64,000 nucleotides of DNA from Pseudomonas sp. FP2309 (lineage in GTDB: Bacteria > Pseudomonadota > Gammaproteobacteria > Pseudomonadales > Pseudomonadaceae), in the NCBI RefSeq assembly GCF_030687575.1, contig NZ_CP117439.1, positions 1,426,001 through 1,490,000 on the forward strand. The letters run 5' to 3'. Positions 3,926 to 33,373 of this stretch are shown piece after piece. The notes under the pieces are model-generated. The model was given only the letters and a program-made list of their open reading frames with translations, searched no databases and was not told where the DNA came from. Position 1 is the first letter of the stretch. Every line of letters starts with the position of its first letter. Both the position numbers and the translations under genes were made by a program.

Positions 3926-5077
3926 ATGTTATCGAACAAGTCCTTGGCACTGGCCCTTTGCCTCACTATGACTGGCTGCGCACAAACTCCACAAAATGAT
4001 GCCGAGGGTGGGCATTGGTGGTCATTTGGATCTGACAAGGCCGCTACCAAGGACGCGGTCACCCAAACCGACACGAAGCCGGATGCCAAACCCGCCGCGG
4101 GTGCCAAGCCTGCCGCTCCGGTAGCTGCTGCCGCCGCTGCGCCGGCCCCCGCCGCCAAGGCGGATACCGGCTCCAGCTGGTGGCCGTTCTCGTCCAAGAG
4201 CGACGACGAAAAGGCTGCCGACGCCAAGGCCGCCGACTTGAAAGCCGACCTCAAGGCCGCAACACCTGCGCCATCCGCCGCGCCTGCCGTCGCCAAGACC
4301 GACAGCGAAACCCACTGGTGGTGGCCGTTCGAAAGCAAACCCAAGCCGCTGGCCAAGGTCGACGTGACCAACGTGCCGATGCCCGACCCGAAGATCACCC
4401 AGGCCTGGTTGGACGACTATGAGCCGCGCCTGCGTGCCGCCATCAAGGACAGCAACCTGCAACTGGAGCGTCGCGACAACGTACTCGTCGTGATTGCCCC
4501 CGTAGACGGTTCCTACAACCCCAAGCGCCCAGCGATGCTGTTGCCCGTTACCCTCGGCCCGTTCACCCGTGTGGCCAAGGCTGTTGAGGCCGATCCGAAG
4601 ACCGCCGTGCTGGTCTTGGGCCACGTTGACGCCACCGGCAGCGCGCCAGCAAGCCAGGCGCTGAGCAAAGAGCGTGCGCAGTCCATCGCGTCCATTTTCA
4701 GCCTCAGCGGCCTGAAGCAGGATCGCCTGATGCTGCGTGGCATGGGCGACCTGATGCCACGTGCCGCCAACGACAGCTCTCAAGGCCGCGCCTTGAACCG
4801 TCGCATGGAAATCATGTTCACCCAGCGCACCACCATGCTGGCCCTGCTGAGCAAGTACAACTCGGGCAAAACCCCGCCAGTGGCTGACATGGTAGCGGTA
4901 CAGGACGTTCCCGCACCGGCGCCGGCGGCCAAGGCCCCTGCGAAAAAGGCTACGGCGACCAAGAAAGCGGCCGCCAAGCCGGCTGCCAAAAAAGCCGCCG
5001 CCAAGCCCGCAGCGAAGAAAGCCGCCCCGGCCAAAGCCAAGGCCGCTGCACCGGCAACCGATCAGGCGAAAAACTGA
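3926..5077 (+). CDS. OmpA-family lipoprotein with Trp-rich repeats and Lys/Ala-rich tail
   Basis: 383 residues. A lipoprotein signal ends at MTGC (Cys18), suggesting lipid anchoring. Residues 20-140 are Ala/Lys/Asp-rich linker carrying three copies of a tryptophan motif: HWWSFGSDK (30-38), SWWPFSSKS (84-92) and HWWWPFESK (130-138). Residues about 160-300 form an OmpA C-terminal-like peptidoglycan-binding domain, with HVDATGSAPASQALSKERA (TDxxG-type loop) and NRRMEI near residue 291. After residue 310 the protein ends in AKKAAAKPAAKK-type repeats like histone H1 or AlgP tails. A role tethering the outer membrane to peptidoglycan is inferred from the domain; the purpose of the repeats and the basic tail is unknown. 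Confidence 0.8.
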   Translation: MLSNKSLALALCLTMTGCAQTPQNDAEGGHWWSFGSDKAATKDAVTQTDTKPDAKPAAGAKPAAPVAAAAAAPAPAAKADTGSSWWPFSSKSDDEKAADAKAADLKADLKAATPAPSAAPAVAKTDSETHWWWPFESKPKPLAKVDVTNVPMPDPKITQAWLDDYEPRLRAAIKDSNLQLERRDNVLVVIAPVDGSYNPKRPAMLLPVTLGPFTRVAKAVEADPKTAVLVLGHVDATGSAPASQALSKERAQSIASIFSLSGLKQDRLMLRGMGDLMPRAANDSSQGRALNRRMEIMFTQRTTMLALLSKYNSGKTPPVADMVAVQDVPAPAPAAKAPAKKATATKKAAAKPAAKKAAAKPAAKKAAPAKAKAAAPATDQAKN

Positions 5078-20882: not shown

Positions 20883-21974
20883 ATGCAGCCTGCGCCGTCC
20901 TCTTTAGCGAACACTTCGCACCAGTTGCTCTACCTTATTTACGGCAGCCAAGACGTTTACCGGCGCGAAGCCAAATTCAGCATCCTCACCGCGCTCTCGC
21001 AACTTAAGCAGGGCGAGTCGTTGTGCATTCGCGTCATGACCGACCGCCCGCAGGACTACGTCGGCTGGCCTGTCGAGACCCTTGAACTGAGCCCGCAGAC
21101 CCTGTCTCAATGGCAGGGCGACAATGGCTACCCCCATCGCCGCAAGGCATGCGCGATTGCCCAGGGCTTGAGGCTTGCCGAAAAAACGCTGTTCGTTGAT
21201 ACCGATACGCTGTTCCTCAAATCCCCCCATCGCGTCTTCGAACTGATCGAGCCTGGCCAGTATGTGATGGATGAATTCGAGTACGACTGGAGCTACGTCT
21301 GCAAGCGTGCGGACTACCTTCAACTGGGCAAACACCTGCGTGCACATGGCATCACGGCCGACGCCAGCTTCAAGCTCTACAACAGCGGTCTGTGCGGTGT
21401 GCGCGCGACTGACGCGGCGCTGCTCGACACCTCGATCCGCTTGATTGACGAGTGGACTCAAGGCTCGTTCGATATCCACACCATCGAACAGATCGCGATT
21501 TCCTTCGCGATGCGTGACCAGAAAGTGCGCGAAGCCAGGAAGTTCGTGCATCACTACTATGCGGACAAGCGGTTTTTCCACGCTATGCAGGCTCATTTTT
21601 TCACGCAGTACGGCGAAGCGTTCACTGCTGAACTGGTCGAGCGTTGCCGGGAAGTGCCGCGTATCAAGCCTGTGCCACCCCCTTGGCAACGCTTGCTGAT
21701 CAAATGGAAACTGCGCAATCAACGCAAGCATTTGAAAAAGGTCGGTCGCGACCTGCTCTACGGTAGCTCGGCGCCTGAGCACCCGTACTACCAAGTCTGC
21801 CGGCACGGCTGGTGGGAATCGGCCTCGAAGGAGATCGGCGGCTGGGATGAGGCTGAGCAGCGTGCGTTTTTTGGTGTGACCGACGCCGGTTGGCCGAAGC
21901 ATCTGCCGCGGCCTGCAAAGCGCGCTGACGAAGAAACCATTATTGCGTTTCTGCGCCAGCGCCGGGTGCAGTGA
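20883..21974 (+). CDS. glycosyltransferase-like protein (nucleotide-diphospho-sugar transferase fold)
   Basis: 363 residues, no signal peptide or membrane helix. The N-terminal part fits a GT-A fold: HQLLYLIYGSQDVYRREAKFSILTALSQL, then RLAEKTLFVDTDTLFLK, where Asp106-Thr-Asp108 is a DxD-type metal/nucleotide-sugar motif, and LYNSGLCGVRATDAAL. The C-terminal about 100 residues are basic and Trp-rich. It may transfer a sugar to a surface glycan, but it is not in a polysaccharide cluster and its acceptor cannot be named. It converges on the tubulin-like gene across a GC-rich stem-loop. Confidence 0.6.
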   Translation: MQPAPSSLANTSHQLLYLIYGSQDVYRREAKFSILTALSQLKQGESLCIRVMTDRPQDYVGWPVETLELSPQTLSQWQGDNGYPHRRKACAIAQGLRLAEKTLFVDTDTLFLKSPHRVFELIEPGQYVMDEFEYDWSYVCKRADYLQLGKHLRAHGITADASFKLYNSGLCGVRATDAALLDTSIRLIDEWTQGSFDIHTIEQIAISFAMRDQKVREARKFVHHYYADKRFFHAMQAHFFTQYGEAFTAELVERCREVPRIKPVPPPWQRLLIKWKLRNQRKHLKKVGRDLLYGSSAPEHPYYQVCRHGWWESASKEIGGWDEAEQRAFFGVTDAGWPKHLPRPAKRADEETIIAFLRQRRVQ

Positions 21975-21979
21975 CAGAC

Positions 21980-22005
21980 GCGACGGCGCCATGCAGCGCC
22001 GTCGC
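21980..22005. terminator. GC-rich stem-loop between convergent genes
   Basis: GCGACGGCGC and GCGCCGTCGC form a perfect 10-bp stem around CATGCA in the 37-base gap between two convergent stops. There is no U-tract, so it may block or stabilise transcripts rather than act as a classical terminator. Confidence 0.5.
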
Positions 22006-22011
22006 CATCGA

Positions 22012-24186
22012 CTAGGCCGTCTTGCCGGTGTGGTTATTCAACGAAATAACCTTCGTCTTACCGATGCGGTGACGGTAAATCTCGCGCAAGTACTTGATCG
22101 CCTTCTTCACGCAATCCCGTGACAGACGAATGTCATTGATCGACACAAACTTGTCTTTGTCGTTGATCAGCTCGCGGTACTTCTTCTCATACATCGGCTT
22201 GATCGCGTACCAGTTGGTATCGAGGATCTTCGCCGGGTTCTCGTACTCATTGAGCAGTTCGTCGATGCGCTCTTCGTCGAAGTCTTCGTGGATGATGAAG
22301 TCCAGGATCGAGTTGTCCAGGGTGTCGTCGAAGCGGTACGGGTTGCGGGCGAAGCAGCGCTTGATAAACGCCACGATGAGCGTCAGGAAGTCATCCGACA
22401 GGCATGGGCTTTTGGCGATCAGGGTGGTCAACGACAGGTTGGCCGACGCGCCGATTACCAGGGCGTAACGCTTGAGGGTGGTGTTGGGGAACAGGCTGTT
22501 GAGGTGGGTCTTGAGCCGGTTCAGGTCCATGTAGGACAGTTTGTAGTCCTTGGGCAGCGAGACGATGGACACCACCGACGAGCAGTTTTTGAAGAAGTGC
22601 AGGTCATGCAGCGCCGCCGCGTCGTATCCCGAATTCTTGTACTGCTCCAAAGAGGCCTTGTAGCGCTTGGATTCGATCGGCAACAGGCTGATGCCTTCGA
22701 TGGCCTGGGTGACTTTGTTGAAGTGCGGCAGGTCGATGGAACGGAAGAACAGGTCGTCGATGTTCAGGCGCTGCGGTTCTTTTTCGAACACCTTGAACTT
22801 GTCGTTCGACGGCGCCGGGGTTTCCGGGACCACGGACTCAGCGTAGGCAATCGCCACCGGGCCGGCCAGGCTCATAAACAGGTCGTTGGCGTCCAGGCGG
22901 ATGGTTTCGCCAATGTCGATACCGGCGCGCCGGAAATAGTTCTGGTCGTAGTCGGTGGTCACGGCCTGGGCGGTGAGGATGTTGAAAATCTGCTGGGAAA
23001 TATACTGGTTGGCGTGTTTTTCCATGGCATTGACATCAATGTTCTGGATGTTGCCGTCATCGCTTTCTTCGGCGTAGCGCATGATGTCGTTGGAGATCAG
23101 CATCATCGCGTTCCACGGACGGATGCGGCCTTTGACGCTGGCTTCGCTGCTGTCTTCGTTGGCGAAGTTGTACGAGAAATCCCATTCTTCCGACAGGTAC
23201 TTGCAGAGCAGTCGCCCGGCGTTGATGTGCAGCGCCTCGGACATTTCACTGCGGTGATCGGAAATATTCGGCAACACGCAAATGCCGCTGGTGAAGATTG
23301 GTTCGAACACAAACGCATGGCCGCTCTTGCTGTCGTGCTCGTCGGCGGGTTTGGTGTCGAACGTTTTGTTCATGTACGAATGCTGCTGGGCCAGGCCAAA
23401 CTCCGAAGCCATGCCCGAACCGGTACCGCCGCCGGCGCTGAAGATCGAGAAGTACAGGCGCGATTGGTTGGCCTTGATCCCGCACGAGTCGATCAGGTAC
23501 GAGTGGATCATCTTCCAGTCGGGGCTGGAAAAACGTTGGGTATCTTTGTTGAGGATGATCTTGGCCAGGTACTGGCCGAGGATCGGCGCGTTACCGGCGC
23601 CGCCGGCATGGACTTCCGACAGGTCCATGATTTTCATCTTGCTGTAGTCGCGCAGGAACCCGCTTTTTTCGCCCTTGCGCGAGAAGCGGATGCGCCCGGC
23701 GATGTCCTTGTCCAAGTCGCCCAGCATCACCAAAGGTTCCACCAGAAACACCGGTTTGCTGGCCTTGCCGCCGCCCAGGCGCAGGTTGTTGCGGATCCAC
23801 TGGGCCGGGCTGTAGCCCTTGTCCAACGACTTATCTTCGTTACTGAATTCGTTCAGGTAGAACTTGCGCGCGTTGTACACCAGTTCCGCCACGTCCAGCG
23901 CGATGTTCGAACCGCAACGGCCCAGCCCGATCAAGCACACCGAGGGAAATTCCTGCTCGCTGCGATGCTGGTCGTCGACTTCCAGATGGGGCGGGCGCGG
24001 GAACACCATATCGCGCAGGCCATCGAGGTTATCGAGGATGCGGTCGGTATTGGTTTCGGTGAAATACAGGTATTGCTGGGTGGCCGGCGGGCGGGCGCTC
24101 AATGACTTTGAACCTGAGGGCATGTCCGCAGGAGCAGTGGGCAACACGTCGGATACCACGGTGGCAGATTTATTTTTAGAAGTCAT
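22012..24186 (-). CDS. tubulin/FtsZ-superfamily-like protein, 724 aa
   Basis: Two signature loops of the tubulin/FtsZ GTPase fold are visible. ICLIGLGRCGSN-type sequence (Gly87-x-Gly89-x-x-Gly92-x-Asn94) matches the T1 nucleotide loop, and FSAGGGTGSGM (Gly252-Gly-Gly-Thr-Gly-Ser-Gly258) matches the T4 tubulin signature. Between them is a long insert, and after them about 460 residues without a domain I can name; no FtsZ-like T7 NxDFAD loop was found. There is no membrane helix. ATG 24186 was chosen (MTSKNKSATVVSD); the frame is open 74 codons further but reads like non-coding leader. It resembles the FtsZ-like families (FtsZl) implicated in membrane remodelling. It stands alone, opposite an orphan glycosyltransferase-like gene. 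GTP binding and polymerisation are inferred. Confidence 0.75.
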   Translation of the reverse strand: MTSKNKSATVVSDVLPTAPADMPSGSKSLSARPPATQQYLYFTETNTDRILDNLDGLRDMVFPRPPHLEVDDQHRSEQEFPSVCLIGLGRCGSNIALDVAELVYNARKFYLNEFSNEDKSLDKGYSPAQWIRNNLRLGGGKASKPVFLVEPLVMLGDLDKDIAGRIRFSRKGEKSGFLRDYSKMKIMDLSEVHAGGAGNAPILGQYLAKIILNKDTQRFSSPDWKMIHSYLIDSCGIKANQSRLYFSIFSAGGGTGSGMASEFGLAQQHSYMNKTFDTKPADEHDSKSGHAFVFEPIFTSGICVLPNISDHRSEMSEALHINAGRLLCKYLSEEWDFSYNFANEDSSEASVKGRIRPWNAMMLISNDIMRYAEESDDGNIQNIDVNAMEKHANQYISQQIFNILTAQAVTTDYDQNYFRRAGIDIGETIRLDANDLFMSLAGPVAIAYAESVVPETPAPSNDKFKVFEKEPQRLNIDDLFFRSIDLPHFNKVTQAIEGISLLPIESKRYKASLEQYKNSGYDAAALHDLHFFKNCSSVVSIVSLPKDYKLSYMDLNRLKTHLNSLFPNTTLKRYALVIGASANLSLTTLIAKSPCLSDDFLTLIVAFIKRCFARNPYRFDDTLDNSILDFIIHEDFDEERIDELLNEYENPAKILDTNWYAIKPMYEKKYRELINDKDKFVSINDIRLSRDCVKKAIKYLREIYRHRIGKTKVISLNNHTGKTA

Positions 24187-24647
24187 TGTGCGCCATGTGC
24201 CTGGGCGGATGGCTGAAAAAATCAAAGGGCCATCACGGAATGGGTGTTCGCGACTTTGCAGTGCGTCCTTGTCCAGAACAGTCGGGCTCTGCCCTGTGTT
24301 CTCTGAGAAAACCTGGCCGGACTCTGATGAATCGGCCGTTTGTCGGCGATCTTTAGGTAAATGATGGCGTAATGCCAAAGAATCCGCGCCAGCGTATTGG
24401 CCGCACAATCGATGAGGGCATTGCGCGATCGGGGGCAGGCTCTCTCGGTAAAATCGGTGCTTTGGGGGCTATCGTGCTGCACGGGTAGAGCGGGTCTATT
24501 TGAAGGGCATCGCCGTCAGGTTTGATCGTGACGACACGGCTTGAGGCGATGACCTCCGACATCGAGTATAGAAGCCTTGCGGAATTTTCCACGGGCAATG
24601 GCACTTTGCCCTGAATGATGTTGGCATGCCCTCCATAGCGTTTAATG
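24187..24647. other. 461-base intergenic region
   Basis: No convincing gene on either strand. It holds the upstream region of the tubulin-like gene and the 3' flank of the YkgJ-type gene, both transcribed on the minus strand. I see no clear terminator; AGCG ... CGCT arms near 24640-24657 are too short to call. Confidence 0.5.
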
Positions 24648-33093: not shown

Positions 33094-33158
33094 TTTTCCA
33101 ATCCGCCTTCTCCATTAACTTAGCCCTATCGCAACAGGGCAAGCACAGGAGGCCGGTC

Positions 33159-33275
33159 ATGTTTATCGATAATGTGGTGTTCGCCGGAGTGCTGACCGTA
33201 AGCCTCATGGTGCTGTTTTTTGTAGGGTTTGGATTTTTTATCTGGAAAGACGCGAACAAGCGTAAAAAACCATAG
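33159..33275 (+). CDS. ccoM: small membrane protein, probable cbb3 oxidase subunit CcoM
   Basis: 38 residues (MFIDNVVFAGVLTVSLMVLF followed by FVGFGFFIWKDANKRKKP), preceded by a perfect AGGAGG six bases before ATG. One transmembrane helix (about residues 8-28) leads into a basic C-terminal tail. Length, the DNVV start and the GFxxFIWKDxxK end match my recollection of the CcoM subunit of Pseudomonas cbb3-type cytochrome c oxidase, which stabilises the complex. The gene has its own ANR-type box and terminator, and the cco operon itself is not in this window, which fits CcoM being encoded separately. Confidence 0.8.
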   Translation: MFIDNVVFAGVLTVSLMVLFFVGFGFFIWKDANKRKKP

Positions 33276-33310
33276 GTTTTTCCGGGTTACATGAGCACGC
33301 AAGGCATTTT

Positions 33311-33336
33311 GGGCGACTTCGGTCGCCCTTTTTTTT
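33311..33336 (+). terminator. rho-independent terminator after the CcoM-like gene
   Basis: GGGCGAC-TTCG-GTCGCCC, a stem closed by a very stable UUCG tetraloop, followed by eight T. It lies 35 bases after the small gene's stop. Confidence 0.92.
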
Positions 33337-33373
33337 GCTTGCGATTTAATCCCTTTTGATAAAACCGGCGCAT

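Follow-up and report, generated by a model that had tools for sequence, protein, structure and literature searches.

A candidate FtsZl2-type protein of the tubulin/FtsZ superfamily, with a T7-like loop, encoded on the chromosome of Pseudomonas sp. FP2309

What is the 724-residue protein encoded at positions 22012 to 24186 of a 64,000-nucleotide stretch of the Pseudomonas sp. FP2309 genome (contig NZ_CP117439.1, positions 1,426,001 to 1,490,000; the whole stretch is referred to below as the window), and what could a tubulin-like protein be doing in a cell that already has FtsZ? An earlier note, made from the sequence alone, had placed the protein in the tubulin/FtsZ superfamily on account of a T1-like loop and a T4 signature. 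Its coordinates and length proved right and the strand, absent from that note, is the minus strand. The gene of 724 codons plus stop runs from an ATG at 24186 to a stop codon ending at 22012, and this reading is backed by 638 homologous proteins (the best 120 of the 638 were listed). On the plus strand the gene is overlapped by a single antisense open reading frame (ORF, 22288-24105), which was not counted as a gene. The assembly consists of one contig of 5.66 Mb and holds one copy of the gene. The best explanation, in which we place somewhat better than even confidence, is that the product is a soluble, guanosine triphosphate (GTP)-binding and probably polymerising tubulin-superfamily protein of the FtsZl2 family, acting apart from division. 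The family has been named before, and the protein does not represent a new kind.

The motifs on which the reading is built are collected in Table 1. Their conservation was scored over an alignment of 70 family sequences, which takes in the window protein and some near-duplicates. Both loops of the earlier note (T1, GLGRCGSN, and T4, GGGTGSG) were confirmed, the positions checked being identical in all 70 sequences. When the composition of the protein was shuffled 200,000 times, the T4 pattern appeared once and the T1-type pattern 3,084 times, and the two together, in order and 60 to 200 residues apart, never appeared (0/200,000). Other segments can be likened to those of the superfamily. EPLVMLGD is presumably the counterpart of the T2 of tubulin, and in the T3-like segment residue 197 is alanine in 62 and serine in 8 of the 70 sequences; hhalign sets GAGNAPILG of this segment against GAGANPEVG of FtsZ with a score that is not significant. 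The T6-, H7- and T7-like assignments are motif readings whose key positions are invariant. LISND was likened by eye to TIPNE of FtsZ, the T6 search pattern itself not matching FtsZ, and the place likened to Asn393 of the H7-like helix is held by an Asp (ADDVL) in the genome's own FtsZ. Where no obvious T7 loop had been seen before, IRLDAND is found at residues 429-435, to be compared with INVDFAD (207-213) in the FtsZ of the same genome. Both acidic residues are kept and Arg430 takes the place of the FtsZ Asn; residues 429 and 431 are in addition identical in 52/52 aligned members. With a T7-like loop in place and its two acidic residues invariant, the proposal that GTP might be bound without catalysis for want of T7 loses its ground, although catalysis may be altered.

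Membership of the tubulin/FtsZ superfamily, as claimed in the earlier note, is supported by profile comparisons and by agreement with a published family description. Tubulin (PF00091) was matched at E<=1 by all 52 aligned members (best 3.1e-05; all below the cut-off where scores were shown) and Tubulin_2 (PF13809) by 49 of them (best 5.2e-04). T1 and T4 lie at the expected positions of the PF00091 profile. The best stretch is at T1, from profile position 2, in three of nine proteins scanned singly (P0124, P0132 and P0175), the T1 region of P0124 being aligned to positions 2-56, while the T4 region of the window protein is aligned to positions 113-128. In hhalign comparisons with FtsZ the real score was higher than that of any of 30 column shuffles, both for the whole protein and for residues 80-460.

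A number of results weigh against this reading. The window protein itself stays below the Pfam cut-offs (PF13809: E=0.0012, 18.6 bits, cut-off 27; PF00091: E=0.0027, 18.4 bits, cut-off 33), and among the nine proteins scanned singly the PF00091 E-values extend from 3.1e-05 to 0.12. The unrelated DUF6562 was weakly matched by 22 of the 52 members (best 0.0026), so that Pfam matches of the lower sort may be due to chance. In hhalign the match to FtsZ was confined to T3-T4, at E=0.025, and the E-values were 0.012 and 0.011 when 70 and 43 sequences were used, with shallow alignments (effective number about 2). The comparison did not reach significance, as the reversed profile slightly outscored the real one (29.8/29.0 and 25.5/25.2). 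Column shuffles equalled or exceeded the real score in 22 of 30 cases for T6-T7, and in 19 and 12 of 30 for two regions of the C-terminus. BLASTP against the genome's own FtsZ found no similarity (best E 2.7). A sequence search of the PDB with the family alignment returned at best an irrelevant ribosomal L23 (E=0.33), and the same search with the single sequence returned no match. A full-length AlphaFold2 model from 52 sequences was too poor for use (predicted local distance difference test, pLDDT, 40.2; predicted template modelling score, pTM, 0.29). The protein also diverges faster than the core of FtsZ within the genus (77 and 81% identity versus 93%) and in the genome labelled G048 (57% versus 71%). 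Finally, the exchange of the T7 Asn for Arg may have altered or abolished catalysis.

The published description is that of Makarova and Koonin (2010; PMC2875224). FtsZl2 is presented there as a proteobacterial family found by the motif GGGTG(S/T)G, its type protein being PFL_1302 of P. fluorescens Pf-5. The family displays T1, T4, T6, T7 and H7, inserts between T1 and T4, a C-terminal region of about 300 residues without known relationship, no coiled-coil domain and no associated genes. The window protein is, by inference from this description, a probable member of FtsZl2. It comes from the same genus, carries the signature with T1 before it and inserts between the two, coexists with FtsZ, has a region (residues ~460-724) that fits the C-terminal one, and has no neighbour common to all groups examined. 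Set against the published description alone, no difference was found. Membership of an FtsZl family had been suggested in the earlier note, and it is thus supported for FtsZl2, not for FtsZl1. With FtsZl1/Tubulin_2 the protein shares the T4 signature and the weak PF13809 match; it differs in falling short of the cut-off of that profile, in having no vWA or OmpA-type gene among eight scanned window neighbours, and in possessing T6-, H7- and T7-like segments, for which the 2010 authors were unable to find counterparts in FtsZl1. Tubulin_2 (PF13809) was also looked for in 120 genomes of the phylum, without a match at E<=0.001. With FtsZ it shares T1 (GxGxxGxN), T4 (GGGTGxG), the T6-like Asn (by eye) and the Asp-x-x-Asp of T7, in the same order. 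It differs from FtsZ in length (724 versus 401 residues), in the lack of BLASTP similarity, in the T7 Arg, in the sub-threshold PF00091 score, in having no end like DIPAFLRRQAD of FtsZ and in its location, the FtsZ of the genome being encoded elsewhere.

The C-terminal part of about 460 residues, previously described as unassignable, can be divided in two. The T6-, H7- and T7-like segments fall within the first ~190 residues, and the following ~260 stay unassigned, nothing above cut-off being found for residues ~460-724 in Pfam, NCBIfam or PHROGs. A stand-alone domain was considered and rejected: the 87 matches to query 460-724 resemble pieces of the same family in their length, 'partial' labels and short contigs, and four of them bear a Pfam domain from another family. 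The low-confidence model offers, as a hint only, the order strand-helix-strand-helix-strand-strand over residues 495-589, plus a short helix at 530-534. This is close to the order of the C-terminal domain of FtsZ.

What we infer for GTP binding, polymerisation, catalysis, the domains of the C-terminus and any cellular role can be summarized as follows. A soluble cytoplasmic protein would bind GTP in a pocket formed by T1-T6 (residues ~80-395); a membrane span is not expected, as no 19-residue hydropathy window exceeds 1.4. Subunits would assemble head to tail, and the T7-like loop, with Asp432 and Asp435, would reach the GTP of the next subunit and promote its hydrolysis. In PMC8936486 the T7 of S. 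aureus FtsZ is described in comparable terms: D210 is catalytic, D213 supplies the chemical environment, N208 contacts metal ions, and the two catalytic aspartates act on the nucleotide of the neighbour. With Arg430 where FtsZ has Asn, the rate or the metal dependence of the reaction would be altered. The C-terminal region of ~260 residues might comprise a second tubulin-type domain and a family-specific extension that would bind a partner or regulate assembly.

The arginine invites a rival explanation, which we regard as rather unlikely, namely that the protein is a GTP-binding but non-polymerising scaffold or switch of tubulin fold, in which the pocket would be kept, subunits would be prevented from stacking by the large inserts and by the Asn-to-Arg change in T7, and the output would come from the C-terminal region. 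Arg430 is indeed identical in 70/70 sequences, the T1-T4 and T4-T7 spacings are longer than in the FtsZ of the same genome, and conservation by block spans most of the 724-residue chain and is not confined to the motifs. The retention of both T7 acidic residues in 70/70 sequences speaks against this rival, and the authors of PMC2875224 predict filaments for FtsZl2, arguing that every superfamily member characterised so far forms them.

An ordinary FtsZ is encoded in this genome by a separate gene ~0.4 Mb away (G000:C1:1045400), and for this reason the favoured, probably polymerising protein would have a cell-organising task apart from division. The alternative of a regulator or co-polymer of FtsZ acting on division appears improbable. 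The two genes coexist in 13/13 genomes checked for both, which says little as FtsZ was found in 55/55 genomes whether the gene was present or not. Distance from ftsZ tells against such a partnership, as does the opinion of the 2010 authors, who judged a direct role in division unlikely and obtained no functional clue for FtsZl2. So does dispensability: within Pseudomonas the gene was found in 226/348 sampled genomes (223/336 of good quality), and the absence of a match in the other 122, together with the finding that a further genome has its copy broken, indicates that it can be dispensed with. Membrane remodelling, evoked in the earlier note, fares no better. In print this proposal is based on the gene neighbourhoods of FtsZl1, with no clue for FtsZl2, and no universal partner gene was found here.

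Matches in two genomes of the genus, G1104 and G1284, were much weaker (E ~4e-206 and 2e-207), suggesting a divergent or partial version. Outside the genus, the gene is present in 11/12 genomes of the family to which G939 belongs (a broken copy among them), 9/121 of the family of G450 and 1/3 of the family of G092. Samples of the class, order and phylum yielded a match in 2/274, 16/293 and 9/398 genomes respectively, the genome's own being counted each time and the phylum being searched with another query; a DNA search of E. coli in 'distant' mode gave none. Two homologue lists were drawn up (the best 120 of 638 and the best 120 of 648), and the protein names among the matches listed include Rheinheimera, Arsukibacterium, Cellvibrio, Alkalimonas, Catenovulum and Echinimonas. 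The broken copy of G939 (locus L175, 8896-11730) is interrupted by ~1 kb of DNA, containing an ORF of 210 residues, that has no match in a sister locus, and it shows further decay.

The gene is chromosomal and usually single-copy. Between families, the whole protein of the window's genome is 68-72% identical to those of f196, f20, f59 and f233, versus 66-74% for the FtsZ core. One horizontal transfer between f196 and f233 is well supported by sequence trees and identities: a tree of 13 proteins nests f196 within f233 (97/99), in conflict with the FtsZ tree, which holds f233 together (100/100), and members of the two families reach 83% identity in the tubulin-like protein versus 65% in the FtsZ core. 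A second transfer has perhaps occurred, the f59 copy being grouped with Pseudomonas (97/97), and inside it at 88/90, against an FtsZ tree that keeps Pseudomonas together (100/100). This copy could be a stray contig, as it lies on one of 9.4 kb in an assembly listed with 3% contamination. G048 forms a very long branch in the 13-protein tree and its placement is unsure.

Transfer between families would also suit a plasmid or phage segregation tubulin captured on the chromosome. TubZ and PhuZ are likewise members of the tubulin superfamily. Such an origin seems highly improbable: no plasmid or phage relatives were found by tblastn at E<=0.01 in 72,556 plasmid and 50,697 phage records, none was confirmed in viral contigs in a search for close relatives only, there was no PHROG match at E<=1, and chromosomal sites are shared within groups. 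A single plasmid match of a further search turned out to be the neighbouring DUF2288 gene, not the tubulin-like gene.

A conserved partner gene had been sought through a neighbourhood survey, and none common to all groups emerged from the loci examined. The survey covered 118 loci, 80 of which are close relatives (92-98% identical) and not independent. In seven loci (L034, L037, L054, L067, L079, L104 and L107) the target was missed by the simple gene caller, and these were dropped; L175 is the broken copy, and L108, L179 and L180 lie outside the groups in which near and far genes were counted. In 64 of the 75 usable close-relative loci, the same strand carries a gene with GGDEF/EAL motifs no more than 2.5 kb away; such a gene is adjacent on the same strand in 4/6 f196 loci and lies 2.2 kb away in the f59 locus. 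In the close relatives such genes make up 64/175 near versus 0/337 far genes, in loci that have a common ancestry and do not count as independent. From the sequences, and with no hidden Markov model search, the N-terminal parts appear to differ, the enzyme being of MHYT-GGDEF-EAL type in the close relatives and an ammonium-transporter-like protein fused to GGDEF-EAL in f196. The association is a lead. A cyclic-di-GMP-linked module, in which the neighbouring enzyme would signal to the polymer or switch or be localised by it, is hard to credit on present evidence. None of the 59 near genes of other groups has the motif, the independent co-occurrences number at most three, the motifs were identified with simple patterns, and the test followed once the data had been seen. 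The window's genome, moreover, has lost the enzyme and kept the tubulin-like gene, so that the former is not needed to keep the latter: at the upstream site, where most close relatives have a full GGDEF-EAL gene of ~2.3 kb, only a remnant is left. Possible counterparts in KT2440 were sought in the literature among PP_1142-1144, where PP1144 is described as a GGDEF/EAL gene with about 3-fold activation by FleQ and PP_1143 as a '3-hydroxyisobutyrate' entry. In f233, a group-specific gene (cluster 29) read as 6-phosphofructokinase comes next in 8/8 loci.

The wider picture that we would draw, at present an unlikely and speculative one, is that gammaproteobacteria have, in addition to FtsZ and MreB, a third cytomotive system. 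FtsZl2 would form a filament that is self-contained, can be transferred horizontally and has an arginine in its catalytic T7 loop. Found in roughly two thirds of the species of Pseudomonas, it would organise a process so far assigned to no polymer and might be linked to cyclic-di-GMP where it stands beside the GGDEF-EAL gene. The open-licence full texts searched name FtsZl2 or PFL_1302 in the 2010 paper alone. Further literature searches gave no study of FtsZl2 by title or abstract, and the listed papers that hold the title phrase of the 2010 article include none with an FtsZl2 experiment by title. The 'FtsZl2' of PMC7327170 is a mutant name (FtsZ L272E) and not the family. A tubulin-superfamily protein that over ~680 residues is as well conserved between families as the FtsZ core, approximately, and is present in 226/348 sampled genomes of a much-studied genus, is therefore without a described function in the literature searched. 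The corrected reading of T7 makes polymerisation and GTP hydrolysis directly testable, and a deletion strain should be simple to obtain, since a third of the genus lacks the gene and most carriers have one copy.

Table 1. Features of the tubulin-like gene and its surroundings (window positions)
Feature	Positions	Strand	Basis
FtsZl2-type gene (candidate), 724 codons + stop	22012..24186	-	ORF; gammaproteobacterial homologues, in Pseudomonas and beyond
Variable N-terminal tail, residues 1-75, short conserved segment ~41-58	23962..24186	-	Block conservation, alignment
T1-like loop GLGRCGSN, residues 87-94	23905..23928	-	87, 89, 90, 92, 94 identical in 70/70
T2-like segment EPLVMLGD, residues 150-157	23716..23739	-	150, 151, 156, 157 identical in 70/70; own reading
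T3-like segment AGGAGNAP, residues 194-201	23584..23607	-	7/8 positions identical in 70/70
T4 tubulin/FtsZ signature GGGTGSG, residues 252-258	23413..23433	-	252-258 identical in 70/70; PF00091 best stretch 246-261
T6-like segment LISND, residues 363-367	23086..23100	-	Asn366, Asp367 identical in 70/70
H7-like helix, residues 385-409, invariant Asn393	22960..23034	-	Helix in low-confidence model; Asn393 in 70/70
T7-like loop IRLDAND, residues 429-435	22882..22902	-	430, 432-435 identical in 70/70
C-terminal region, residues 471-724, without recognised stand-alone domain	22015..22776	-	Block conservation; homologue search
35-residue remnant, end of GGDEF-EAL gene	24392..24496	-	tblastn E 4.6e-06, blastn
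Glycosyltransferase-like gene	20883-21974	+	Convergent with tubulin-like gene, 37 bp gap

The facing glycosyltransferase-like neighbour reported in the earlier note is present and convergent, although its family match is sub-threshold (Pfam PF03407, E=0.041; sub-threshold in NCBIfam too). It was rejected as a partner, being seen in 8/102 loci, the window's included, in a count made with the simple gene caller in which several loci were cut by contig ends. DUF2288 and then branched-chain amino-acid (liv) transport genes lie past it. Upstream of the tubulin-like gene are found a CxxCxxCC protein, a major facilitator superfamily (MFS) transporter and RapA. A GC-rich hairpin between the convergent genes (21950-22030), unexceptional against shuffles (z -0.72), is a possible terminator. 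Elsewhere in the window, a 27-base unit is repeated in tandem 2.5 times (4959-5026) and the small RNA PhrS is encoded on the plus strand (33120-33337; Rfam RF01673, 200 bits).

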